Positions 3,128 to 62,873 of a DNA stretch of 64,000 nt are shown piece after piece. Position 1 is the first letter of the stretch; each line of letters opens with the position of its first letter. Made by a program: the position numbers and the translations under genes. A model generated the notes under the pieces. That model had not been told where the DNA came from and did not search any database. It worked only from the letters and a program-made list of their open reading frames with translations. The stretch lies in the IMG/VR virus record IMGVR_UViG_3300031962_000003, positions 1 through 64,000 of that record; one strand, given 5' to 3'. Source of the DNA: a virus.

Positions 3128-4774
3128 ATGTTCTATGGACTGGGCCAAAACGACGTCGCGGTCCTGCACTCCTTCCCGCCGGACATCCACCAGTTCCTCG
3201 TCGAGGGGATGAGCGACCCGGAGTCCCGCGACGAGGTCATGAACATCCTCCGGGCACCGAACCCGCACGCGGAGTTCGCCCGGCAGGTCGCCATGACAGC
3301 CGGCGACGCGATCCAGATTGGGATGCAGGACGGCGGGTCTGGCCTGGCCGCGTACGAGGCCGGCATGGGCCGGAGCTTCTTCAAGAAGATCATGCGCTTC
3401 CACCGGAAGATCTTCAGCACGATCAAAAAAGTGAACGCGAAGATCGCACGGCTCGACCCGATCTACAAGGCGACCGCGAAGATCCGGAAGTCCGTCATGA
3501 AGGAGGTCCGGAAGTTCGCCCCGATCATCATCGGAGTCGCCGGCGCGGTGCTCGCGCCGTTCACCGGCGGTCTCTCGCTCGCCGCCGCCGCGGTCCTGTC
3601 GGCGGCGTACGAGCTCCGGAAGAAGAAGATCGAGGCCGCGAAGGCCGTTAAAGCCGGGAAGGCCGAGGCCGGACAGATGCAGGCCGCCGTCAACGCCCAG
3701 GAAGCTCAGGTCGGTCAGCAGGCTGACGACTTCTACGCGAAGAATCAGGAGTACTTCGCGACGGCCGGCCTGACGCCGGACAAGTGGGCGGCGCTCACGG
3801 TCGACCAGAAGGTCAACTACATCAACGAGGGTCAGGCCGGCACGCTCCAGGCGGACCCGTCGATCGTCGCGCTCATGCAGAAGGCCCAGGCCCAGGGCGT
3901 CCTTCCGACCACGCCGAACCACTGGTATGTCATGGGAACGGACTCCTCCGGGAACCAGATCAGTCAGGACTTCCCGGATCAGGCGACCGCGAACGCCTTC
4001 GCCCAGCAGCAGATCGCTGCGGGCGGGAACGTACAGGTGGTCGGCGCGACAAATCCCGCCGCAGCAGTCGCGCCGCCGACCGCCACGCAGGCGCTCGCGG
4101 CGGGGGTTCCACCGCCGACGCCCGCCGCCGCGGCGGCCGCGGTCCCTCCGCCGGTCCTCGGTACGCAGACGCCATCGACCGGCTACTCCGGTGCCCCGTC
4201 GTCCGTGGCCGCTCCTGGCCCGTCCGACACCGGCGGGCCCGGGCCGGACCAGGTGCCCGACACCTCCCAGGAGGCCGCCGCGACGGCCGCCGGTCCAGCG
4301 CCCGCCGACGCGCAGCTCACGCAGATCGGCGGAGAGCTGCCGATGACCGAGGCCGAGGAGACCTCCGCGCCGAATATCGCCGGCTCGTTCGACATCCTGG
4401 TCGAGGGCCAGAAGGTCACCGAGCACCCGATCGACAACCTGAACCACGTCGGCGAGTCGATCGAGGCGGTCGTCCAGCCCGGCGACCGCTTCGAGGTCCT
4501 CTTCAACGGGGCGACGACCGGCCTGAAGATCAAGACCCAGGACGGCTACGCGTCGATCCCGCCGGAGCAGGCGGACCAGGTCCGGGCGATGACGCACGAG
4601 CAGGTCCTCGCCCTGATCAACGGCTCCACACAGAAGGCCGCCGACTCGACCGGCAGGACCGCCCCGGCCCCCATCACGGACGACGGCGGCGCGGCCCCGA
4701 GCGGCGGCGGCATGGTGCTCCCCCTCGCGCTCGTCCTCGGCGTCGGCTACGGGCTCTCGAAGATGCGGAGGTAG
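3128..4774 (+). CDS. Large Ala/Pro-rich membrane-associated virion-type protein
   Basis: 548 residues. Residues about 95-130 form a strongly basic amphipathic stretch (FFKKIMRFHRKIFSTIKK), followed by a hydrophobic pair of segments (about 135-165). A helical, Gln-rich region and a long Pro/Ala linker come next. A globular piece near residues 415-490 is followed by a C-terminal transmembrane helix ending in KMRR. It begins the overlapping run of membrane-type genes (3 bases to the next). No family is recognised. The arrangement suggests a virion protein that binds or spans a lipid layer; this is inference. Confidence 0.7.
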   Translation: MFYGLGQNDVAVLHSFPPDIHQFLVEGMSDPESRDEVMNILRAPNPHAEFARQVAMTAGDAIQIGMQDGGSGLAAYEAGMGRSFFKKIMRFHRKIFSTIKKVNAKIARLDPIYKATAKIRKSVMKEVRKFAPIIIGVAGAVLAPFTGGLSLAAAAVLSAAYELRKKKIEAAKAVKAGKAEAGQMQAAVNAQEAQVGQQADDFYAKNQEYFATAGLTPDKWAALTVDQKVNYINEGQAGTLQADPSIVALMQKAQAQGVLPTTPNHWYVMGTDSSGNQISQDFPDQATANAFAQQQIAAGGNVQVVGATNPAAAVAPPTATQALAAGVPPPTPAAAAAAVPPPVLGTQTPSTGYSGAPSSVAAPGPSDTGGPGPDQVPDTSQEAAATAAGPAPADAQLTQIGGELPMTEAEETSAPNIAGSFDILVEGQKVTEHPIDNLNHVGESIEAVVQPGDRFEVLFNGATTGLKIKTQDGYASIPPEQADQVRAMTHEQVLALINGSTQKAADSTGRTAPAPITDDGGAAPSGGGMVLPLALVLGVGYGLSKMRR

Positions 4775-4777
4775 CGG

Positions 4778-5437
4778 ATGCTCCGGGATCCGGTCGCCTA
4801 CGCGCACGCGATCGCCTCCGCCTTCGCGGCGGACCTGGCGGAGTCTCCGACCCTCACCGACGTCATCGCCGAGCGCCGGGTCACCCAGGACGGCTTCCGG
4901 TCGATCATCCTCAAGGACCTCCAGCGGTCGATTACAGGGGAGTCCGGACCGAACCTCTTCCCGCACATGCGGGCGTTCGTCAAGAGCCTGATCGACGCGA
5001 ACGTGGCCGCGAAGAACGCCGGTGTTTCCGGCCTCGGCGCGGCCGCTCCCGAAGGAGCGTTCGGGATGTCGGCGTCGATGACCGGCGGGATCACTTCGCT
5101 CGTCGGAGCGGTCACCGGGGTCGTCTCGGCGGTCTGGGGCGCGAAGATCCAGGCCGGCGCAATAAAGAACCTCGGGAAGGTCCAGCTCCAGGAGGCCCAG
5201 CTCGCCGAGCGCTCCCAGGAGATCGCGCTCCAGCGGGCCCAGATCGAGAATGCGACCGCGGTCGGGATCCCCGGCGGGGCTCCGGGCACGGGTCCTTCGG
5301 GTGGGGTGATCGCGCTCGGCCCGGTCGCGATCCCGGCGGCGGTCGAGATCGGCGGGACGTCCGTTCCGACCGCGACACTCGCGCTCGCGGCCCTTGCGGT
5401 GATGGGCGGCGGCTGGTACGCTTTCCACGGGAGATGA
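4778..5437 (+). CDS. Gly/Ala-rich membrane protein
   Basis: 219 residues. The first 75 residues are a soluble helical domain. Residues about 92-125 are a glycine-rich hydrophobic segment, followed by a Gln/Glu helix (about 130-160), and the C-terminus holds a second hydrophobic stretch (about 195-213) ending HGR. It starts three bases after the 548-residue protein and has the same C-terminal membrane anchor plan. Function unknown; a structural membrane protein is inferred. Confidence 0.65.
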   Translation: MLRDPVAYAHAIASAFAADLAESPTLTDVIAERRVTQDGFRSIILKDLQRSITGESGPNLFPHMRAFVKSLIDANVAAKNAGVSGLGAAAPEGAFGMSASMTGGITSLVGAVTGVVSAVWGAKIQAGAIKNLGKVQLQEAQLAERSQEIALQRAQIENATAVGIPGGAPGTGPSGGVIALGPVAIPAAVEIGGTSVPTATLALAALAVMGGGWYAFHGR

Positions 5438-5440
5438 CCG

Positions 5441-5998
5441 ATGCGACACCACGCGATCGTCTACAGGGACACGTTCCGGACGCTCGTCGATCGTGGTGTC
5501 CCCATGGGACGCGCCCGGCACATACTCAACCGGGCCTTCGTCCGGGTCCGCCGGCGTCACGCCGGCATGGGCGACGAGACGACCGGGGACACCTCGGCGG
5601 ACCCGGCCGGACAGTCCTGGCTGGACCGGACGACGGCGATCATCGCCGAGTACAAGGACCCGACGTACAGCAAGGCCGATCTTCACCTCGAGGCGCAGAA
5701 CGCCATGCAGGGGATCAGCGCCCTACTCTCGAACCGCTTCAGCCAGCTGAGCTCGACGATGGTCCAGTCGCTCTACTCGGCGGACGATATCCTGAACAAG
5801 ATCCAGGTCGGCACGCTCTCGGCGACCTTCGAGTCGCCCTGGTCCTCCGGCGCGACGGAGTTCGTGCAGACGCTGAAGCAGGAGGTCGTTGCCGGCGGGA
5901 AGGCCCTCGCGAACCCGCTCAGCGTCGTACCCTGGTGGGCCTGGCCGCTCGGAGGTCTCGTCGGTCTGGCCGCGGCGAAGTCCCTTCTGAAATTCTAG
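5441..5998 (+). CDS. Membrane-anchored protein with shared N-terminal GxP module
   Basis: 185 residues. The N-terminus carries the module RGVPMGRARHILNRAFVR, which aligns with the N-termini of three other proteins in this operon (7879, 8615 and 9456 starts). The centre is helical and polar. The C-terminus has PWWAWPLGGLVGLAAA, a transmembrane helix, then KSLLKF. An Asn-Pro pair (LANPLS) sits just before it. The shared module suggests a common docking surface in the particle. Function unknown. Confidence 0.65.
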   Translation: MRHHAIVYRDTFRTLVDRGVPMGRARHILNRAFVRVRRRHAGMGDETTGDTSADPAGQSWLDRTTAIIAEYKDPTYSKADLHLEAQNAMQGISALLSNRFSQLSSTMVQSLYSADDILNKIQVGTLSATFESPWSSGATEFVQTLKQEVVAGGKALANPLSVVPWWAWPLGGLVGLAAAKSLLKF

Positions 5999-6012
5999 AG
6001 GAGAGAGAGTCG

Positions 6013-7302
6013 ATGGAGTCGATCGCAGACCACCTCCGGGATGTCCCGGAGATCGCCGTCCGGCTGTACCTCGGCGCGAAGGGCATCAAGGACCAGCAGT
6101 CCGGCTGGGACATCGAGTTCGAGGGCCGCGTGATCCCGATCTCGTCGGAGGTCATGATCCAGGCGACCAAGGTCGCTCGGGTCCTGCAGATCCGGAACCG
6201 GCCGTCCGGCTCCGCCTCCGACATCCTCGAGCTCCGGCACGACGCCGAGGATATCTTCATCGAGGATATCATGGGCGAGCGGAAGGTCCCACGGATCCTG
6301 TTCGTTCCCGCCGGCGACATGGCCTCGGCGTACTACCGGGCGATGCTCCCGGCCGACACGATGATGGAGCGTGGCCTGGCGGTCTCGCACTTCACGTCCC
6401 GCCTGGACATCTACAAGGCGACCCGCTACCAGATTCTCTGGATCCAGCTGGTCACGGCACCGATCCTGCTCGATATCGTCCGGCAGGCGAAGTCCTCCGG
6501 CGTCCGGATTGTCTACGATATCGACGATCGATTCGACGCGCTTCCGGTGGCGAACCCTTCCTCCTGGGTCTACAACAAGGAGAAGATCGCGGAGGTCTGG
6601 TCGATGATCGAGCTGGCGGATCTCGTCACGACCAGCACTCAGGACCTGGCGGACCACGTCCGCGGCCGCGCGAAGGTCGTGAAGGTCCTCCCAAATCTCG
6701 TCTCGGCATCGATCCTGCCGAAGCGGAACGAGCCGACCGGAGACGTCTTCCGGATCCTCTGGGCCGGCAGCCCAACGCACGCCCGGGACCTCGCGGTCGC
6801 CTCGCCGGCGATTGCTCGGGTCCTCGCCCGGCACGCCGGGAAGGTCCGCTTCACGCTCTTCGGGGAGTCTCTCCCGAAGGACCTCTCCGAGGTCTTCCAG
6901 TACATCGACCAGATGCGCTTCGTCGACTTCCCGGAGTACAGCGAGACGCTCGCCCGGGTCGGCGCGGACGTCGCGATCGCGCCGCTCGAGGACACGCCGT
7001 TCAACGCCTCGAAGTCCGCCGTGAAGTTCCTCGAGTACTCGGCCTGCGGGTACCCGTCGCTTCTCTCTTCTGTCGGAGAGTATAAAGAACTCCCACCGGA
7101 GTCCGGACGTGTCTTTGTTCCGGACGACTTCTGGGAGCAGGCCCTCGAGGAGGCCCTGAACATGCCTCCCGACGACCTCCAGAGGAGAGGGAAGCTGTCC
7201 CGGAAGTGGACGATCGAAAACCGCTGCCTGGTCCGGACGAACGCCCGCCAGTGGGCGGAGACCGCCCGGGACCTGCTCGCCGAGTCCGTCCCGAGCGCCT
7301 GA
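6013..7302 (+). CDS. Glycosyltransferase, GT-B fold
   Basis: 429 residues from an ATG preceded by GAGGAGAGAG. The C-terminal half matches the nucleotide-sugar-binding domain of GT1/GT4 enzymes: RILWAGSPTHARDL, then FGES, then the acidic-patch region with PLEDTPFNASKSAVKFLEY and CGYPSLLSS. The N-terminal half contains LFVPAGDMASAYYRAMLP and YDIDDRF, typical of acceptor-side domains in bacterial GT4-like proteins. It probably transfers a sugar from a nucleotide donor to a protein or glycan in the cytoplasm. It sits inside the structural operon, so virion glycosylation is a reasonable inference. Confidence 0.85.
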   Translation: MESIADHLRDVPEIAVRLYLGAKGIKDQQSGWDIEFEGRVIPISSEVMIQATKVARVLQIRNRPSGSASDILELRHDAEDIFIEDIMGERKVPRILFVPAGDMASAYYRAMLPADTMMERGLAVSHFTSRLDIYKATRYQILWIQLVTAPILLDIVRQAKSSGVRIVYDIDDRFDALPVANPSSWVYNKEKIAEVWSMIELADLVTTSTQDLADHVRGRAKVVKVLPNLVSASILPKRNEPTGDVFRILWAGSPTHARDLAVASPAIARVLARHAGKVRFTLFGESLPKDLSEVFQYIDQMRFVDFPEYSETLARVGADVAIAPLEDTPFNASKSAVKFLEYSACGYPSLLSSVGEYKELPPESGRVFVPDDFWEQALEEALNMPPDDLQRRGKLSRKWTIENRCLVRTNARQWAETARDLLAESVPSA

Positions 7303-12205: not shown

Positions 12206-12538
12206 CTAGTCCCCCTCCCCGTCGTCCGGCGGATTCGCGACGGCGGTCACCTCGTCCTGGGCCCTGTTGATCTCGATCCAGCGGACCCGACGATCGCCGC
12301 CGGCCGTCAGCTCGTAGAGGTACGTCCTGCCGGCGAGCTCACGTCGGACAAGCCCATTCTGTCGGGCTCTCGAGAGGATCGTCCAGATGGTCCCCTCGTG
12401 GACGCTCTCCGACCTGGGCCCCATCGCCTCCAGAACCCCTGCCACCGACAGCGGCCCTTTCTTGAGCGTCAGCAGGACGCCCCGGGACAGCCCGGTCAGT
12501 TTCCGGTACGACGACTTCGACTTCCGTACGCGTGCCAT
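12206..12538 (-). CDS. Winged-helix DNA-binding protein
   Basis: 110 residues. A basic N-terminus is followed by LSRGVLLTLKKGPLSVAGVLEAM and SVHEGTIWTILSRARQNGLV, a winged helix-turn-helix of the PadR/BlaI kind (about residues 17-75), ending in a strand region GRTYLYELTAGG. Likely a transcription regulator acting as a dimer. Its start region is overlapped by the upstream HNH gene read in another frame. Target unknown. Confidence 0.7.
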   Translation of the reverse strand: MARVRKSKSSYRKLTGLSRGVLLTLKKGPLSVAGVLEAMGPRSESVHEGTIWTILSRARQNGLVRRELAGRTYLYELTAGGDRRVRWIEINRAQDEVTAVANPPDDGEGD

Positions 12539-12872
12539 GGTTCGCTCCTCTCTGGTGACTGGCCCGCCCCTTGGCGAGCATATCCTTGACGTTCTCCAGC
12601 TGCGTCCCCGGCTGAATGTGCTCGAGGACGTTCACGCAGCGGCGGTTGTCGCACCCGTGCAGGAGGACCTTCCCGCGCGGGACCGGACCGAACAGGATCC
12701 GATACGCGACGATGTGGGCCCGCTGGACCCGGCCGTCGAGCCAGAAAGCCCAAAATCCGCCATCCCATGGTTCCGCCTTCCAGGTCCGGACAGACGCCGT
12801 CCAGATCCAGCAGCCAGTCGCCTGGTCGATCTGAACCTTGGACCAGAAGCGTCTTAAGTCACTCTTCCGCAC
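12339..12872 (-). CDS. HNH endonuclease overlapping the winged-helix gene
   Basis: 177 residues if read to its stop, from a GTG preceded by GAGGGT. The core is FWSKVQIDQATGCWIWTAS, AHIVAYRILFGPVPRGKVLL, HGCDNRRCVNVLEHI and GTQLENVKDMLAKGR, a standard phage HNH domain (zinc-less ββα-metal type). The expected C-terminal repeat after ANHG is missing. Instead about 200 bases continue out of frame through the start of the winged-helix gene. The functional protein may be only the first 110 residues. It looks like an insertion that damaged or borrowed its 3' end. Confidence 0.7.
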   Translation of the reverse strand: MRKSDLRRFWSKVQIDQATGCWIWTASVRTWKAEPWDGGFWAFWLDGRVQRAHIVAYRILFGPVPRGKVLLHGCDNRRCVNVLEHIQPGTQLENVKDMLAKGRASHQRGANHGTRTEVEVVVPETDRAVPGRPADAQERAAVGGRGSGGDGAQVGERPRGDHLDDPLESPTEWACPT

Positions 12873-12923
12873 GTTTACCCTCTGTTCGCCTCGTGGACGG
12901 TCCACCAGGGCCGCCCGCGAGGA

Positions 12924-12949
12924 GGGCCGGAGCGAAGTTGCTCCGGCCC
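12924..12949. other. Perfect 10-bp hairpin
   Basis: GGGCCGGAGC, loop GAAGTT, GCTCCGGCCC. It lies between the LacI-type HTH gene and the HNH gene on the minus strand. There is no T-run. Candidate terminator or leader structure. Confidence 0.45.
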
Positions 12950-12992
12950 GGATAGAGAGGGAATACACTCCGGAGAGCCTCCCTCCTTTGTG

Positions 12993-53196: not shown

Positions 53197-55081
53197 CACC
53201 GCAGGCGATCCGTCGGATCCGAAGGATCCGGCCGTATCCACGGCCACGGAGACTCCCGGAAACGGCAAGACTGGGGACGTCCAGGCGGACGTCCGCCTGC
53301 GCGGCTCCGTCAAGGACGTCGCGGAGCGTCTCTCCGGCGGCCGCCAGGCCGAGCCACGGGAGCCGGAGGCGGACCGCGAGCAGAGCGAGGAGATCGCCCG
53401 GATCACGAAGCTGCTCGCTGACCCGAAGAACATGCTCACGGTCCAGCGGATCTACCCGACCCGCTGGGCCGGCCAGAAGGTCGACCACAAGGTCCCGGGC
53501 CGCTGGCAGTGCCCGCAGATCCTCGACCGTCTCTGCGAGGAGGTCTTCGACCGTTTCGGCGCGAAGACCTTCAAGGTCACGATCCATCCGAACGTTCCCA
53601 ACGGCGAACTGAAGATGATCGACGCCTTCACGATCGAGAACGACCAGGAGGACGAGCCGCTCTGGGAGGGACAGCGGATCGGCGCGCCGACCGCCGCCGG
53701 GACGCCGACCTACGACCCGCGGACCGGACTCGTGACCGGCACGACCGACCCGACCATGAAGCTCGACGACTCGCCGCTCGCGATCGCGAAGGCGGCGATC
53801 AAGCGGAAGGTCGAGATGGCGAAGGACAAGGCCGAGCTCCTCGAGGCCCAGCAGGCCCTCGCCCAGCTCGAGGAGATGGACGCCGCCACGAAGAAGAAGG
53901 CTGAGCAGCCGGCGTCTGAGGAGGTCCTGGAGCTCCGCCGGCAGCTGGCCGAGCGGGACCGGACCGAACGCGAGAAGTCGAAGGAGGACCGCTGGGAGAG
54001 CCGGATGGAGAAGCTCGAGAACCTGGTCCTCAAGCTCGTCGACAAGCCGGCGACCCCGCCGGCGCAGGACAACTCGCTCCTGACGGCGCTGATCACCTCC
54101 GCCGACAACAAGTTCAACGCGCTTATGACGGCGCTCGTGCCGGCCCTGACCGGCGGGAACCGAAAGGGCACCGACGAAGACGCTATGCTCGACAAGTTGT
54201 CGAAGTACAAGAGCCTCTTCGGGGAAAACAGCTCGAAGTCTGCAAAGCTCGAAGACATGATGTTCGAGCTGATGATGGACCGTATTTCTAGCGGCGACAG
54301 TCGCCGAGGCGGCGGCGAGATGTCCGACGAGGACACGATCCGCTTCGCCATCAAGGAGATGGTCCCGCTCGCGAAGACCTGGATCGAGAAGAAGTTCGAG
54401 ACCGACGGGACGACGAAGGGGATGACTCCTCAGGAGGCTGCGAAGGCCGTCCAGGAGGAAGCGATCAAGATGACGAAGGCGACCATCGAGAACTGGACGA
54501 AGCAAGGCTGGCTCTTCAAGCCGGGCGCGCCCGGGGCCGCCCCGGCCCTGCCGGGACCGGCGAAGCAGCCGGCTCTGCCCCCGCCGGCCACGAAGCCCGC
54601 CGCCCCGGCCGCCCGGGTCGCGACGGCCGACGGCGTCGTCAACGCGCCGACGGCACAGCAGCAGCCGCCGGCCCCCGTCCAGCCACAGCCCGCTTCGCCG
54701 TCCGCGAAGACCCAGGCACAGGAGGAGAGCATGGACGTCCCGCCCGGACCGACCGCCCGCGGCTACGACCGCCGCAAGGCCGTCGACTTCATCGTCAAGG
54801 TCGCGATCGAGGACATCGAGCGCGGCTGCCCGCCGGACACGTTCATCGTCGGCGACATCCTCGACCGCCTCGACGACGAGATCCTCGACCAGTTCCTGAA
54901 GGTCACGAACGGCCAGGAGCTCGAGGCCCTGCTCGCGCCGCACGCGACCCCTGAGCTCCTAGAGAAGATGAAGGTCATCGGGAACACTCCGGAGGCGAAG
55001 CAGTGGCTGACCAGAGTCCTTGTAACCGCGCAAGATACTTTCCGTCAGGAGTTAGAAGAGGAAAAATCAAAAGGAACTTAG
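53168..55081 (+). CDS. Large scaffold-like protein
   Basis: 637 residues. Disordered N-terminus, a compact domain (about 85-155: TVQRIYPTRWAGQKVDHKV, FDRFGAKTFKVTIHPNVP), long coiled coils (about 210-290), a helical domain (about 330-455), a Pro/Ala linker (455-545), and a C-terminal domain with DYIVK-like helices (AVDFIVKVAIEDIERGCPPD). No Walker motifs. The last 60 bases are AT-rich, like the HNH gene that follows, suggesting its tail was altered on insertion. A scaffold or DNA-organising role is possible. Confidence 0.6.
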   Translation: MSRNPRRPADTAGDPSDPKDPAVSTATETPGNGKTGDVQADVRLRGSVKDVAERLSGGRQAEPREPEADREQSEEIARITKLLADPKNMLTVQRIYPTRWAGQKVDHKVPGRWQCPQILDRLCEEVFDRFGAKTFKVTIHPNVPNGELKMIDAFTIENDQEDEPLWEGQRIGAPTAAGTPTYDPRTGLVTGTTDPTMKLDDSPLAIAKAAIKRKVEMAKDKAELLEAQQALAQLEEMDAATKKKAEQPASEEVLELRRQLAERDRTEREKSKEDRWESRMEKLENLVLKLVDKPATPPAQDNSLLTALITSADNKFNALMTALVPALTGGNRKGTDEDAMLDKLSKYKSLFGENSSKSAKLEDMMFELMMDRISSGDSRRGGGEMSDEDTIRFAIKEMVPLAKTWIEKKFETDGTTKGMTPQEAAKAVQEEAIKMTKATIENWTKQGWLFKPGAPGAAPALPGPAKQPALPPPATKPAAPAARVATADGVVNAPTAQQQPPAPVQPQPASPSAKTQAQEESMDVPPGPTARGYDRRKAVDFIVKVAIEDIERGCPPDTFIVGDILDRLDDEILDQFLKVTNGQELEALLAPHATPELLEKMKVIGNTPEAKQWLTRVLVTAQDTFRQELEEEKSKGT

Positions 55082-55083
55082 AA

Positions 55084-55728
55084 GTGATCGACCTCTCCGG
55101 AAAAGTGTTTGGACATTGGACTGTCGAAACCTTTTCTCACGTCTCTAACAAATCAAGGCGCTGGATCTGCGTGTGTTCCTGCGGAAAAATGAAGTTCGTC
55201 ATAGAATCGAATCTAGTTCTCGGAAGAACAAAGTCGTGCGGTTGTTTCCGTGATAAAGCCTCCTCTATCAGAAATCGTAGACACGGAGACTCGTGCGGAG
55301 GAAAAGTCACACCGGAATACCAGACGTGGCAGCACATGCTCACTCGTTGCAGGAGAAAGACGTCCCCCGACTACAAAAACTACGGAGGTCGTGGGATCAC
55401 AGTGTGTGACCGGTGGATGTCTTTTGAAAACTTTCTTTCGGACATGGGTCGTAGGCCTCCAGGAAAAACTCTCGAGAGACAAAATAATGAACTAGGTTAC
55501 GGCCCGGACAACTGTGTATGGGCGACCCGTGCCGAGCAGAGTAGGAATAAACGAAGCAGCAGAATTCTAGAGTTCCGTGGGGACAGAAAGACGATCACCG
55601 AGTGGTCGAGAACTCTCGGGGTACACCAAGGAACTCTCTCTGCCAGACTTAATCGTTACGGATGGTCCGTTGAACGCGCTCTATCAGAGCCTATAAACGG
55701 GACATCCAAACCATCACTCGCTCAGTAA
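55084..55728 (+). CDS. HNH-type homing endonuclease
   Basis: 214 residues from GTG. An N-terminal zinc part (ICVCSCGKMKF, KSCGCFRD), then TPEYQTWQHMLTRCRRKTSP, NYGGRGITVCDRWMSFENFL, DMGRRPPGKTLERQNNELGY and NCVWATRAEQSRNKR: the same family as the 8148 gene. AT-rich compared with flanking genes. Free-standing and inserted after the scaffold-like gene. Confidence 0.9.
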   Translation: MIDLSGKVFGHWTVETFSHVSNKSRRWICVCSCGKMKFVIESNLVLGRTKSCGCFRDKASSIRNRRHGDSCGGKVTPEYQTWQHMLTRCRRKTSPDYKNYGGRGITVCDRWMSFENFLSDMGRRPPGKTLERQNNELGYGPDNCVWATRAEQSRNKRSSRILEFRGDRKTITEWSRTLGVHQGTLSARLNRYGWSVERALSEPINGTSKPSLAQ

Positions 55729-56399: not shown

Positions 56400-58034
56400 G
56401 TGGCAGAAACGACGACGGTCGAGCCGCTCTCCCGCGGAGTCGACGGCACCGCGAGCACCATCGCCCACATGCACAAGCTTGTCGCGCTCGGCAAGCTCGA
56501 CCCGACGATCCAGAAGATGGCGACCTGGATCCGCCTCTCGGTTCCTCAGGACTACCGGGGCTCGACGAAGCAGACGCTCGCCGCCGTCTTCGACTTCGTC
56601 CGGAAGCACGGGATCTTCCAGCGCGACCCATTTCAGATCGAGAAGATCGAGCACCCGATCGAGGCAATGCGGCCGGTCATACAGGCCCGCCTGGCCGGAA
56701 AATACAAGGGCCCCGGCCTCTTCATCGGCGACTGCGACACGCTGGCCGGCGTCTTCCTCGCTTCGCTCGCCGGCGTGCTCGGATTTCACTACGCTTTCGA
56801 GACCGCGAAGACCGACGCCCAGCGGCCCGACGAGTTCTCGCACGTCTGGGACGCCTTCTGGGTCGACGGCGAGTGGTGGCCGCTCGACCCGTCGACGCCG
56901 GGGACCGTCCCGGGCTGGCGGCCGCCGGTCGCGCCGGAGAACTTCCGCCGCTGGCAGGAGGAGCCGATCGAGTCGACGCTCAAGGGGATCGTCCCCGGCC
57001 TCGGAGACGGCCACGAGAATCCTCCGGTCCACGGCGCGTACCAGCGCCCGGACGACCGCGACTACGTTCCGTACGAGTACTACGGCTACGGGATCACGAA
57101 GGGCTGGGAGGGCGACCAGGTCATTCCGCCGATCGACGGCGGGAGCTACGAGAACCTGGTCCCGAACGGCCCGCAGGAGAACGCCCCGGACGTCGAGGCG
57201 AACTCGAAGCTCCTGAACAAGGCGCTCCCGGAGAGCCCGACCCGTCGTTTCGGCGACTACGCGGACATCGTCTACCCGAGGCCGAACTACCAGGACAAGA
57301 AGCCGTACATCTACACGAAGGAACTCCACTATCCGCCCGGTTCCATGTGGAACCAGGACCGGACCCAGATCCTGTACTCGCCGCTCCGGGACTACTACAG
57401 CATCAAGTACCCGACGGAGCCGGCACCTCGAGAGGAGCATGTCGCCATGGCACAGCCGCTGACGATCCTGCGTGGCAACGCGATCATGATGGAGCCGACG
57501 CCGGTCGCGGCCGGGGCCGGAGACGACACCGCCGACCTGTCGACGGCGGTCTTCAACCTCGACACGACCCCGAGCTCGCAGCCGGCGGTCTCCGACGAGG
57601 AGGCCGTCACCAACGCGCAGATCGCCGCGAGCGCGAAGCCCGGCGCGCCGCCGGCCTCGCCGCTCGTGGTCGCGGCGGCGGCCCAACAGAAGCCGGCCGC
57701 AGCAAGCACGGCGGGCGCGAACGTCTGGGACGCGATCACGAGCGTCGTGAAGGGTGTCGCCCCGGCGTTCGCAGCCGGTGGGATTCTCTCGAAGTTCGGG
57801 GGCGCGTACAACTCCGCGCTCGGGAAGCTCGGGATCAAGCCGCCGTCCGCACCCACCCCCTGGTACCTCTCTCCCGGGATGCTGCTCGGCGCTGCGATCG
57901 TCGTCAGCGGCGGAATCTACATGATGACTCGGAAAGGCACCTCCGGTGCTCGGCGTGGGACGACCCGCCGGTACCGCCGGAACGTCGGCGGTCGGATACA
58001 GGTCCGCCGGAGGAACGTCGCCTACGCGGCCTAG
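56400..58034 (+). CDS. Transglutaminase-fold membrane protein
   Basis: 544 residues from GTG. GDCDTLAGVFLASLAGVLGF (Cys), DEFSHVWDAFWVDGEWWPLD (His) and LDPS (Asp) give the transglutaminase/cysteine-peptidase triad at about residues 103-160. A long Pro/Tyr-rich region (about 190-345) follows, then an Ala/Pro linker, two hydrophobic segments (about 435-460, 490-512) and a basic tail (RRYRRN, RRRNVAYAA). Likely cross-links or processes virion proteins, membrane-held. Family match is good, role inferred. Confidence 0.75.
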   Translation: MAETTTVEPLSRGVDGTASTIAHMHKLVALGKLDPTIQKMATWIRLSVPQDYRGSTKQTLAAVFDFVRKHGIFQRDPFQIEKIEHPIEAMRPVIQARLAGKYKGPGLFIGDCDTLAGVFLASLAGVLGFHYAFETAKTDAQRPDEFSHVWDAFWVDGEWWPLDPSTPGTVPGWRPPVAPENFRRWQEEPIESTLKGIVPGLGDGHENPPVHGAYQRPDDRDYVPYEYYGYGITKGWEGDQVIPPIDGGSYENLVPNGPQENAPDVEANSKLLNKALPESPTRRFGDYADIVYPRPNYQDKKPYIYTKELHYPPGSMWNQDRTQILYSPLRDYYSIKYPTEPAPREEHVAMAQPLTILRGNAIMMEPTPVAAGAGDDTADLSTAVFNLDTTPSSQPAVSDEEAVTNAQIAASAKPGAPPASPLVVAAAAQQKPAAASTAGANVWDAITSVVKGVAPAFAAGGILSKFGGAYNSALGKLGIKPPSAPTPWYLSPGMLLGAAIVVSGGIYMMTRKGTSGARRGTTRRYRRNVGGRIQVRRRNVAYAA

Positions 58035-61570: not shown

Positions 61571-62873
61571 ATGGCGAACGGAAACGGGGCCCCCGCCGGG
61601 GGCATCCAGGTCGTTCATCCCTAGACGTTTTGTATTGGGGATGTAAAATCCTCTCTGATGGACTTGGAAGCTGAGAGGCCGACAAGGGCGAATCCTGTGA
61701 TGAAGGAAACCGAGAAGGCGTACCTGGCAGGGATAATCGACGGTGAGGGCACCGTGTCGATCGTCCGACTCTTCAACCACGGAGACAAGGTGTACTACGT
61801 TGCCTCCGTGGAAGTGTCCAACACGAACCTGAAGCTGCTCAACTGGATCAGCGAGCGTGTTGGGGGGTCGAAAGTGCCGGACCGCCGGAAGCTGGTGAAC
61901 GGCCAGAAGATCGTCTACCGCCTCGGCCTTCGTGATCGCCTCGCTGAGAATGTCCTCCGCGAAGTCTCTTCGTACCTCGTTCTGAAGGACCGCCAGGCGG
62001 AGCTCGTCATGGAGCTCCGTTCGAGGATCCGGAAGAATGGAGACAGAAGTCGACTCACGGACAGCGAGCGAGCGTACCGCGCGCACCTGTACGAAGAGTG
62101 CGCGAAGCTGAATGTGCGCGGTACCGGGAACGCTGAACGACTGAGCGAGAGGAGCCCGGAAACGGGCGTGCGACAGTCTGAACTCACGGGAACGAGAACC
62201 GTGAGAGAGGGATCCGAAGCGGTCCCTCCGCCTATCGAGAGATAGGTCCGTAAAGTAACAGCCTGACTACAAGATCACGAAGGGCTTGCCGGCGGCCGTC
62301 GTGAGGTCGTACAAGGAGCCGAGGTATGACTCCGAAGTCATCCTCGCTTCGGGTCCGGGCACGGAGTTCGTGCTCTTCGCGAAGCCCGTCGGCCAGACGC
62401 TGAACGACGGAAACCGGAAGACCCTGCTGCACACGAATATGACGCAGGCGTCCCAGCTGGGCACGCCCCAGTCGTTCGACGTGTACGCGCACAACGCGCG
62501 CCTGCTGACGCAGAACGCCGGGACGATCGTGACGCCGCCGACCAAGCAGGTCTCGGTCGGCAACTTCAACCTGGTGTATGCCGCCGGCATCTCCCAGGTG
62601 ATCTTCGGCCAGGATTCGTTCTTCCTGACCGTCCCGATCGAGGACATCCCCTCCGGCATCGACACGGAAGGCGTGTCGGTCACGGACTTCCCGCACATCG
62701 GCCTGGGACAGTCGGAGAACATGTACCGCTTCGACATCGGCGGTCGTGCGCTCCACATCAACTCGACGGAAACCTTCAACGTGAAGATTTCCTTCCCGGC
62801 CGGCCTGGCGGGGATCACCGGGAACCTGCTGTTCAAGTGGTACATCCGGGGAATTCTTTATAAAGGAGTTTAA
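61571..62873 (+). CDS. Split candidate capsid protein (two exons)
   Basis: Join 61571-61622 with 62266-62873. The exon sum is 660 bases, an exact frame of 219 residues plus stop. Exon 1 begins MANGNGAPAGG; without splicing it ends after 17 codons. Exon 2 gives a beta-rich protein (AVVRSYKEPRYDSEVILASG, VSVGNFNLVYAAGISQVIFG, FFLTVPIEDIPSGIDTE, FNVKISFPAGLAGITGNLLF) with the look of a small jelly-roll. Group I introns favour conserved essential genes, which supports a capsid role. It is followed by a second structural gene. Confidence 0.7.
61623..62265 (+). ncRNA. Group I intron in the candidate capsid gene
   Basis: 643 bases. P1 pairs exon CATCCCT with GGGGATG (61637-61643), placing the last exon U opposite G, the group I rule. 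UUGUA just before that guide can pair with exon 2 UACAA (P10). P7 is GACTG (62139-62143) with CAGTC (62174-62178); P8 is GCCCG-GAAA-CGGGC (62154-62167); P9 is CTCACGG/CCGTGAG (62183-62205). The intron ends in G (62265). It contains a LAGLIDADG gene. Confidence 0.85.
61658..62245 (+). CDS. LAGLIDADG homing endonuclease within the intron
   Basis: 195 residues; the in-frame ATG at 61700 is an alternative start (181 residues). AYLAGIIDGEGTVSIVRLFN is the LAGLIDADG helix with the acidic metal ligand. VEVSNTNLKLLNWISERVGG and KLVNGQKIVYRLGLRDRLAE complete a single-motif enzyme, which acts as a dimer. The last 35-40 codons run through the conserved intron core, so that end is constrained by RNA structure. 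It spreads the intron by cutting intronless capsid genes. Confidence 0.9.
   Translation: MDLEAERPTRANPVMKETEKAYLAGIIDGEGTVSIVRLFNHGDKVYYVASVEVSNTNLKLLNWISERVGGSKVPDRRKLVNGQKIVYRLGLRDRLAENVLREVSSYLVLKDRQAELVMELRSRIRKNGDRSRLTDSERAYRAHLYEECAKLNVRGTGNAERLSERSPETGVRQSELTGTRTVREGSEAVPPPIER

Follow-up and report, generated by a model that had tools for sequence, protein, structure and literature searches.

The interrupted gene and its relatives

The window, that is the whole stretch of viral DNA analysed here, comprises 64,000 nt (positions 1 to 64,000) of the 68,222-base IMG/VR virus record IMGVR_UViG_3300031962_000003, and the features of the locus described below all lie on its plus strand. An ATG at 61571 starts a frame of 17 codons that is closed by a TAG at 61623, and removal of the 643 nt at 61623-62265 leaves exactly 660 nt encoding 219 aa with a single terminal stop. 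Exon 1 (61571-61622) is 17 codons plus one base and exon 2 is 62266-62873; their join, CAT CCC T with AC TAC AAG, would yield VVHP/YYKI in the protein. The intervening segment begins after U61622, and two features of group I introns, a terminal G (G62265) and exact removal restoring the gene, are found. In the first-pass annotation of this DNA the 17-codon exon, early stop, 643-nt segment and 660-nt frame had already been pointed out, and every coordinate given there is correct.

Seven viral contigs (L005, L006, L007, L009, L010, L059 and L060) match the joined frame and are without the insertion, VVQP/YYKI being continuous across the junction in 7/7 and exon 2 has 65-69% identity to six relatives. 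Since the seven read through the junction, the intronless alleles bear out to the base both boundaries that P1 and the terminal G predict. Comparison of the spliced protein with such relatives had been proposed earlier as a check; all of them encode the joined N-terminus and none the unspliced one. Once exon 2 had been aligned with the first homologue found, that alignment drew out further relatives, and two more came by way of the neighbouring gene. Single-sequence searches of viral contigs with the exon 2 and 63048 proteins gave no matches because such searches reach close relatives only; those with alignments succeeded. The two candidate capsid genes and the 637-aa protein gave no tblastn match in phage records, and no exon 2 relatives were found in bacterial genomes.

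One relative, L003 (IMGVR_UViG_3300050821_005575; L008, L016 and L065 are the same contig), is occupied at the identical site of the same gene. Its insertion, 659 nt long, has a homologous LAGLIDADG enzyme (61% identical) and a nearly identical core, with 62131-62193 the same in both introns while dS of the flanking genes is near 1. The P1 sequences, CAACCCU/GGGGUUG in L003 and CAUCCCU/GGGGAUG in the window, differ by a compensatory change. The L003 contig also has a second LAGLIDADG ORF, a two-motif one at 5286-6131 in the gap between two conserved genes, that is absent from the window. With seven relatives encoding the spliced protein and a structure that covaries over 24 introns, as considered below, the intron locus is not a product of chance.

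Structure of the intron RNA and its covariation

P1 pairs 61616-61622 with 61637-61643, placing a U-G at the 5' splice site, and P10 can form between 61630-61634 and 62268-62272. Both had been drawn in the first-pass annotation, as had P7 (GACTG/CAGTC, 62139-62143 with 62174-62178), P8 (62154-62158 with 62163-62167) and P9 (62183-62189 with 62199-62205), and all were recovered along with the terminal G. To these are now added P3, in which UCCUCUC at 61649-61655 pairs with 62147-62153, P4 (61663-61666 with 61683-61686), P5 (61670-61672 with 61677-61679, drawn by eye) and P6, whose 5' strand is 61687-61690 and whose 3' strand is CGCU at 62131-62134; a separate P2 is absent. P9.1 (about 62207-62228) and P9.2 (62231-62236 with 62241-62246) are, with P7, P8 and P9, all present in the minimum-energy structure of 62130-62265, which has a z of -4.24 and was equalled in stability by 0/200 shuffles. 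The 5' segment of the intron folded alone is no more stable than its shuffles.

A search of phage contigs with the core motif of the window intron gave 24 members, 23 of them distinct, which were aligned with the L6 insert removed. Pairing in P3, P4, P6, P7, P8 and P9 is kept in 99.0% of 629 cells, where shuffling gives 73.2% and sliding 30-46%. The alignment leans towards structure because its skeleton was hand-built, the 5' strand of P3 being picked for pairing and P4 placed by eye. Double-changed cells number 158 as against 47.9 in the shuffled control and are present in P3, P4, P6, P8 and P9; P7, invariant by design of the search, for that reason gives no covariation signal. The 3' strand of P6 is fixed 2 nt before ACGACUG in every member except L050, and a P1 with terminal U-G is found in 23/24 members; for 22 of these no more than 3% of shuffles reach an equal score.

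A covariance model, R1, was made from 12 phage-contig members with the window and L003 left out. It matches the window at 62131-62261 with 109.8 bits (E 3.4e-29), has one copy in the whole 68,222-base record and has no match in five intronless loci. It also finds the introns of BAKA (E 1.7e-6) and LittleE (2.6e-4), which are to be regarded as distant from that of the window because their scores, 32.1 and 24.7 bits, are weak. No phage was matched by blastn with the 3' end of the intron. In genome contigs the intron core was seen in just two, at 1003-1054 of L057 (a Coleofasciculaceae MAG) and 1610-1663 of L058 (an Enterococcus draft), both possibly prophages.

Why Rfam is silent

The covariance search with Rfam that the first-pass annotation had called for is, taken literally, negative, with no match to the intron locus at the gathering cutoff nor at E up to 10; the core is found with our own model R1. 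The 50-bit threshold of RF00028 (Intron_gpI) is not reached by the window intron, and at gathering none of its tested relatives was recovered, one compact relative drawing a blank even at E up to 10. With the Rfam model LittleE scores 30.7 bits and BAKA 28.6, and splicing of both has been shown during infection (PMC3706429). An absent Infernal or Rfam match, which had been held to count against an intron, is therefore not a valid refutation, for Rfam misses relatives and puts two introns spliced in vivo below its cutoff. RF00028 and the window intron have the P1, P3-P9 architecture in common, and the P7 of the latter is like that of canonical introns; the window intron, which the model misses, differs in being without a separate P2 and without P7.1/P7.2. 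A 2025 study of Bastillevirinae introns (PMC11878797) describes the Rfam model as incomplete and cautions that phage variants may escape database models. The Rfam result here is a false negative that shows where the model is limited; a score above its cutoff does not define group I introns. On contig L017 there are two group I introns, 3150-3383 and 4657-4695, both on the minus strand; one is found by Rfam, and the other, of the present lineage, is missed by it.

The LAGLIDADG enzyme in L6

Loop L6 houses an ORF for a homing endonuclease (HEG), most probably 61700-62245 (181 aa), whose 3' part overlaps the ribozyme core. The longest frame opens at 61658, and the ATG at 61700 is the likeliest start because the upstream ATG at 61658 reads ATA in L003. 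The translation has a single LAGLIDADG-type motif, LAGIIDGEG. Its match to phrog_5046 (E 3e-24) is to a family labelled HNH, homologues in Streptomyces phages are labelled LAGLIDADG, and the match to Pfam LAGLIDADG_3 is weak (0.081). Between the window and L003 dN is 0.35 and dS 1.52 (dN/dS about 0.23), with the frame intact in both copies; the HEG would appear to be under purifying selection, consistent with a maintained protein. Endonuclease matches were also seen elsewhere in the window. An open frame at 54955-55725 on the plus strand, directly after the 637-aa gene, has a strong HNH endonuclease match (phrog_374, 1e-62) and is likely a free-standing homing enzyme; another, at 12339-12968 on the minus strand, matches the endonuclease family HNH_3 (1.1e-7).

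What gene is interrupted?

The first-pass reading, a group I intron with a LAGLIDADG enzyme in a candidate capsid gene, holds for its first part on the evidence of the empty sites, the covarying core, R1 and the intact HEG in L6; for the capsid part no family match or confident fold was obtained. The interrupted gene has no PHROG, Pfam or PDB match, the AlphaFold models of both candidate capsid genes are unusable (pLDDT 29 and 33), and no similarity to VP16 or VP17 of P23-77 was found, which leaves a two-jelly-roll capsid unsupported. These same results favour the intron being real and its host gene specifying some other late or virion protein, an alternative to be taken seriously even if we put it at somewhat under even odds. 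Against it are the strong conservation of the gene in every relative (viruses of roughly 67-73 kb), always beside a conserved 317-aa gene, and the company kept by other introns of the lineage, for the exon that follows them matches phrog_1357 (major head protein) in 3/8 contigs and phrog_156 (portal) in 2/8. Because lineage introns interrupt portal and major head protein genes, a head gene is a plausible host here too, and the 219-aa protein is a candidate capsid protein.

A 544-aa protein with a weak match (0.016) to a transglutaminase core is encoded at 56400-58034, close to the beginning of the putative virion cluster. In the 68,222-base record phrog_2, the large terminase family, has no match; Walker-A proteins are confined to the helicase, D5-like primase and Sak4-like genes, and no tRNA was found.

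Proposed splicing and its alternatives

We consider it about 95% probable, judging from sequence, that in a conserved gene of a putative virion cluster codon 18 is split by a mobile group I intron carrying its own LAGLIDADG HEG. The RNA would fold into P1, P3-P6 and P7-P9, with guanosine binding in P7; cleavage after U61622 would be followed by joining of U61622 to A62266, restoring the 219-aa frame. Translation of an unspliced transcript would go no further than the intron's first codon. Presumably the enzyme encoded in L6 cuts intronless alleles near the junction, with repair spreading the intron. Splicing, cutting and homing by the window intron are what we infer from its letters and those of its relatives.

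Could the gene instead be simply broken, whether by insertion of an HEG alone or by an intron that has decayed, and express a shortened protein from an internal TTG? Such a frame does open within exon 2, at TTG 62286. Every core helix is intact, however, 62131-62193 has stayed unchanged between the window and L003 despite the dS of the flanking genes, and all relatives encode the joined N-terminus, all of which makes a broken gene very improbable. Translational bypassing as in T4 gene 60, where the ribosome would skip the segment in unspliced RNA, could point to a non-coding-looking segment dividing a gene, with an early stop beside the junction, but the segment, at 643 nt, greatly exceeds the known bypassed gaps of about 50 nt and contains an HEG and the whole of a group I core, under a covariance model common to spliced introns, so that this prospect is scarcely credible. 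The intact core, the joined relatives and the model shared with spliced introns lead us to reject both in favour of a group I intron that most probably splices.

A lineage among phage introns

Phage group I introns with HEGs are familiar, capsid genes included (LittleE, and Tuc2009 as cited in PMC3706429), and Jug phages have many (PMC12363816). In Cluster J mycobacteriophages the LittleE intron is in the major capsid gene and that of BAKA in a minor tail gene (PMC3706429). These introns are in virion genes, as that of the window probably is; like it they follow an exon 1 that ends in U, themselves end in G, have the same order of helices and a similar 3' end (GUAACA), and are found by R1. They differ in their enzymes, that of LittleE being HNH and on the opposite strand rather than LAGLIDADG and BAKA having none. 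The window intron, in a gene of a putative virion cluster, adds to a kind already known, group I introns with homing enzymes in phage structural genes.

In members of the lineage P1 runs almost straight into P3, P2 and P7.1/7.2 are absent, the core has the form ACGACUGAGC...AGG...RACAGUCUG, and the 3' end is GUAACAR. Taken as a whole, this lineage may not have been described before; other model sets exist (cited in PMC12363816). We see an even chance that it is a distinct and widespread phage lineage to which Rfam is blind, that it prefers head genes (portal and major head protein elsewhere, a candidate capsid gene in the window), and that many of the phage head genes so split are misannotated.

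A phage may contain a group I intron even where an Rfam search is negative, and a covariance model with about two dozen members can now be used to seek more of them. For an uncharacterised group of viruses one conserved gene has its reading frame corrected, and the main interest of the window intron is the Rfam-blind lineage to which it belongs.
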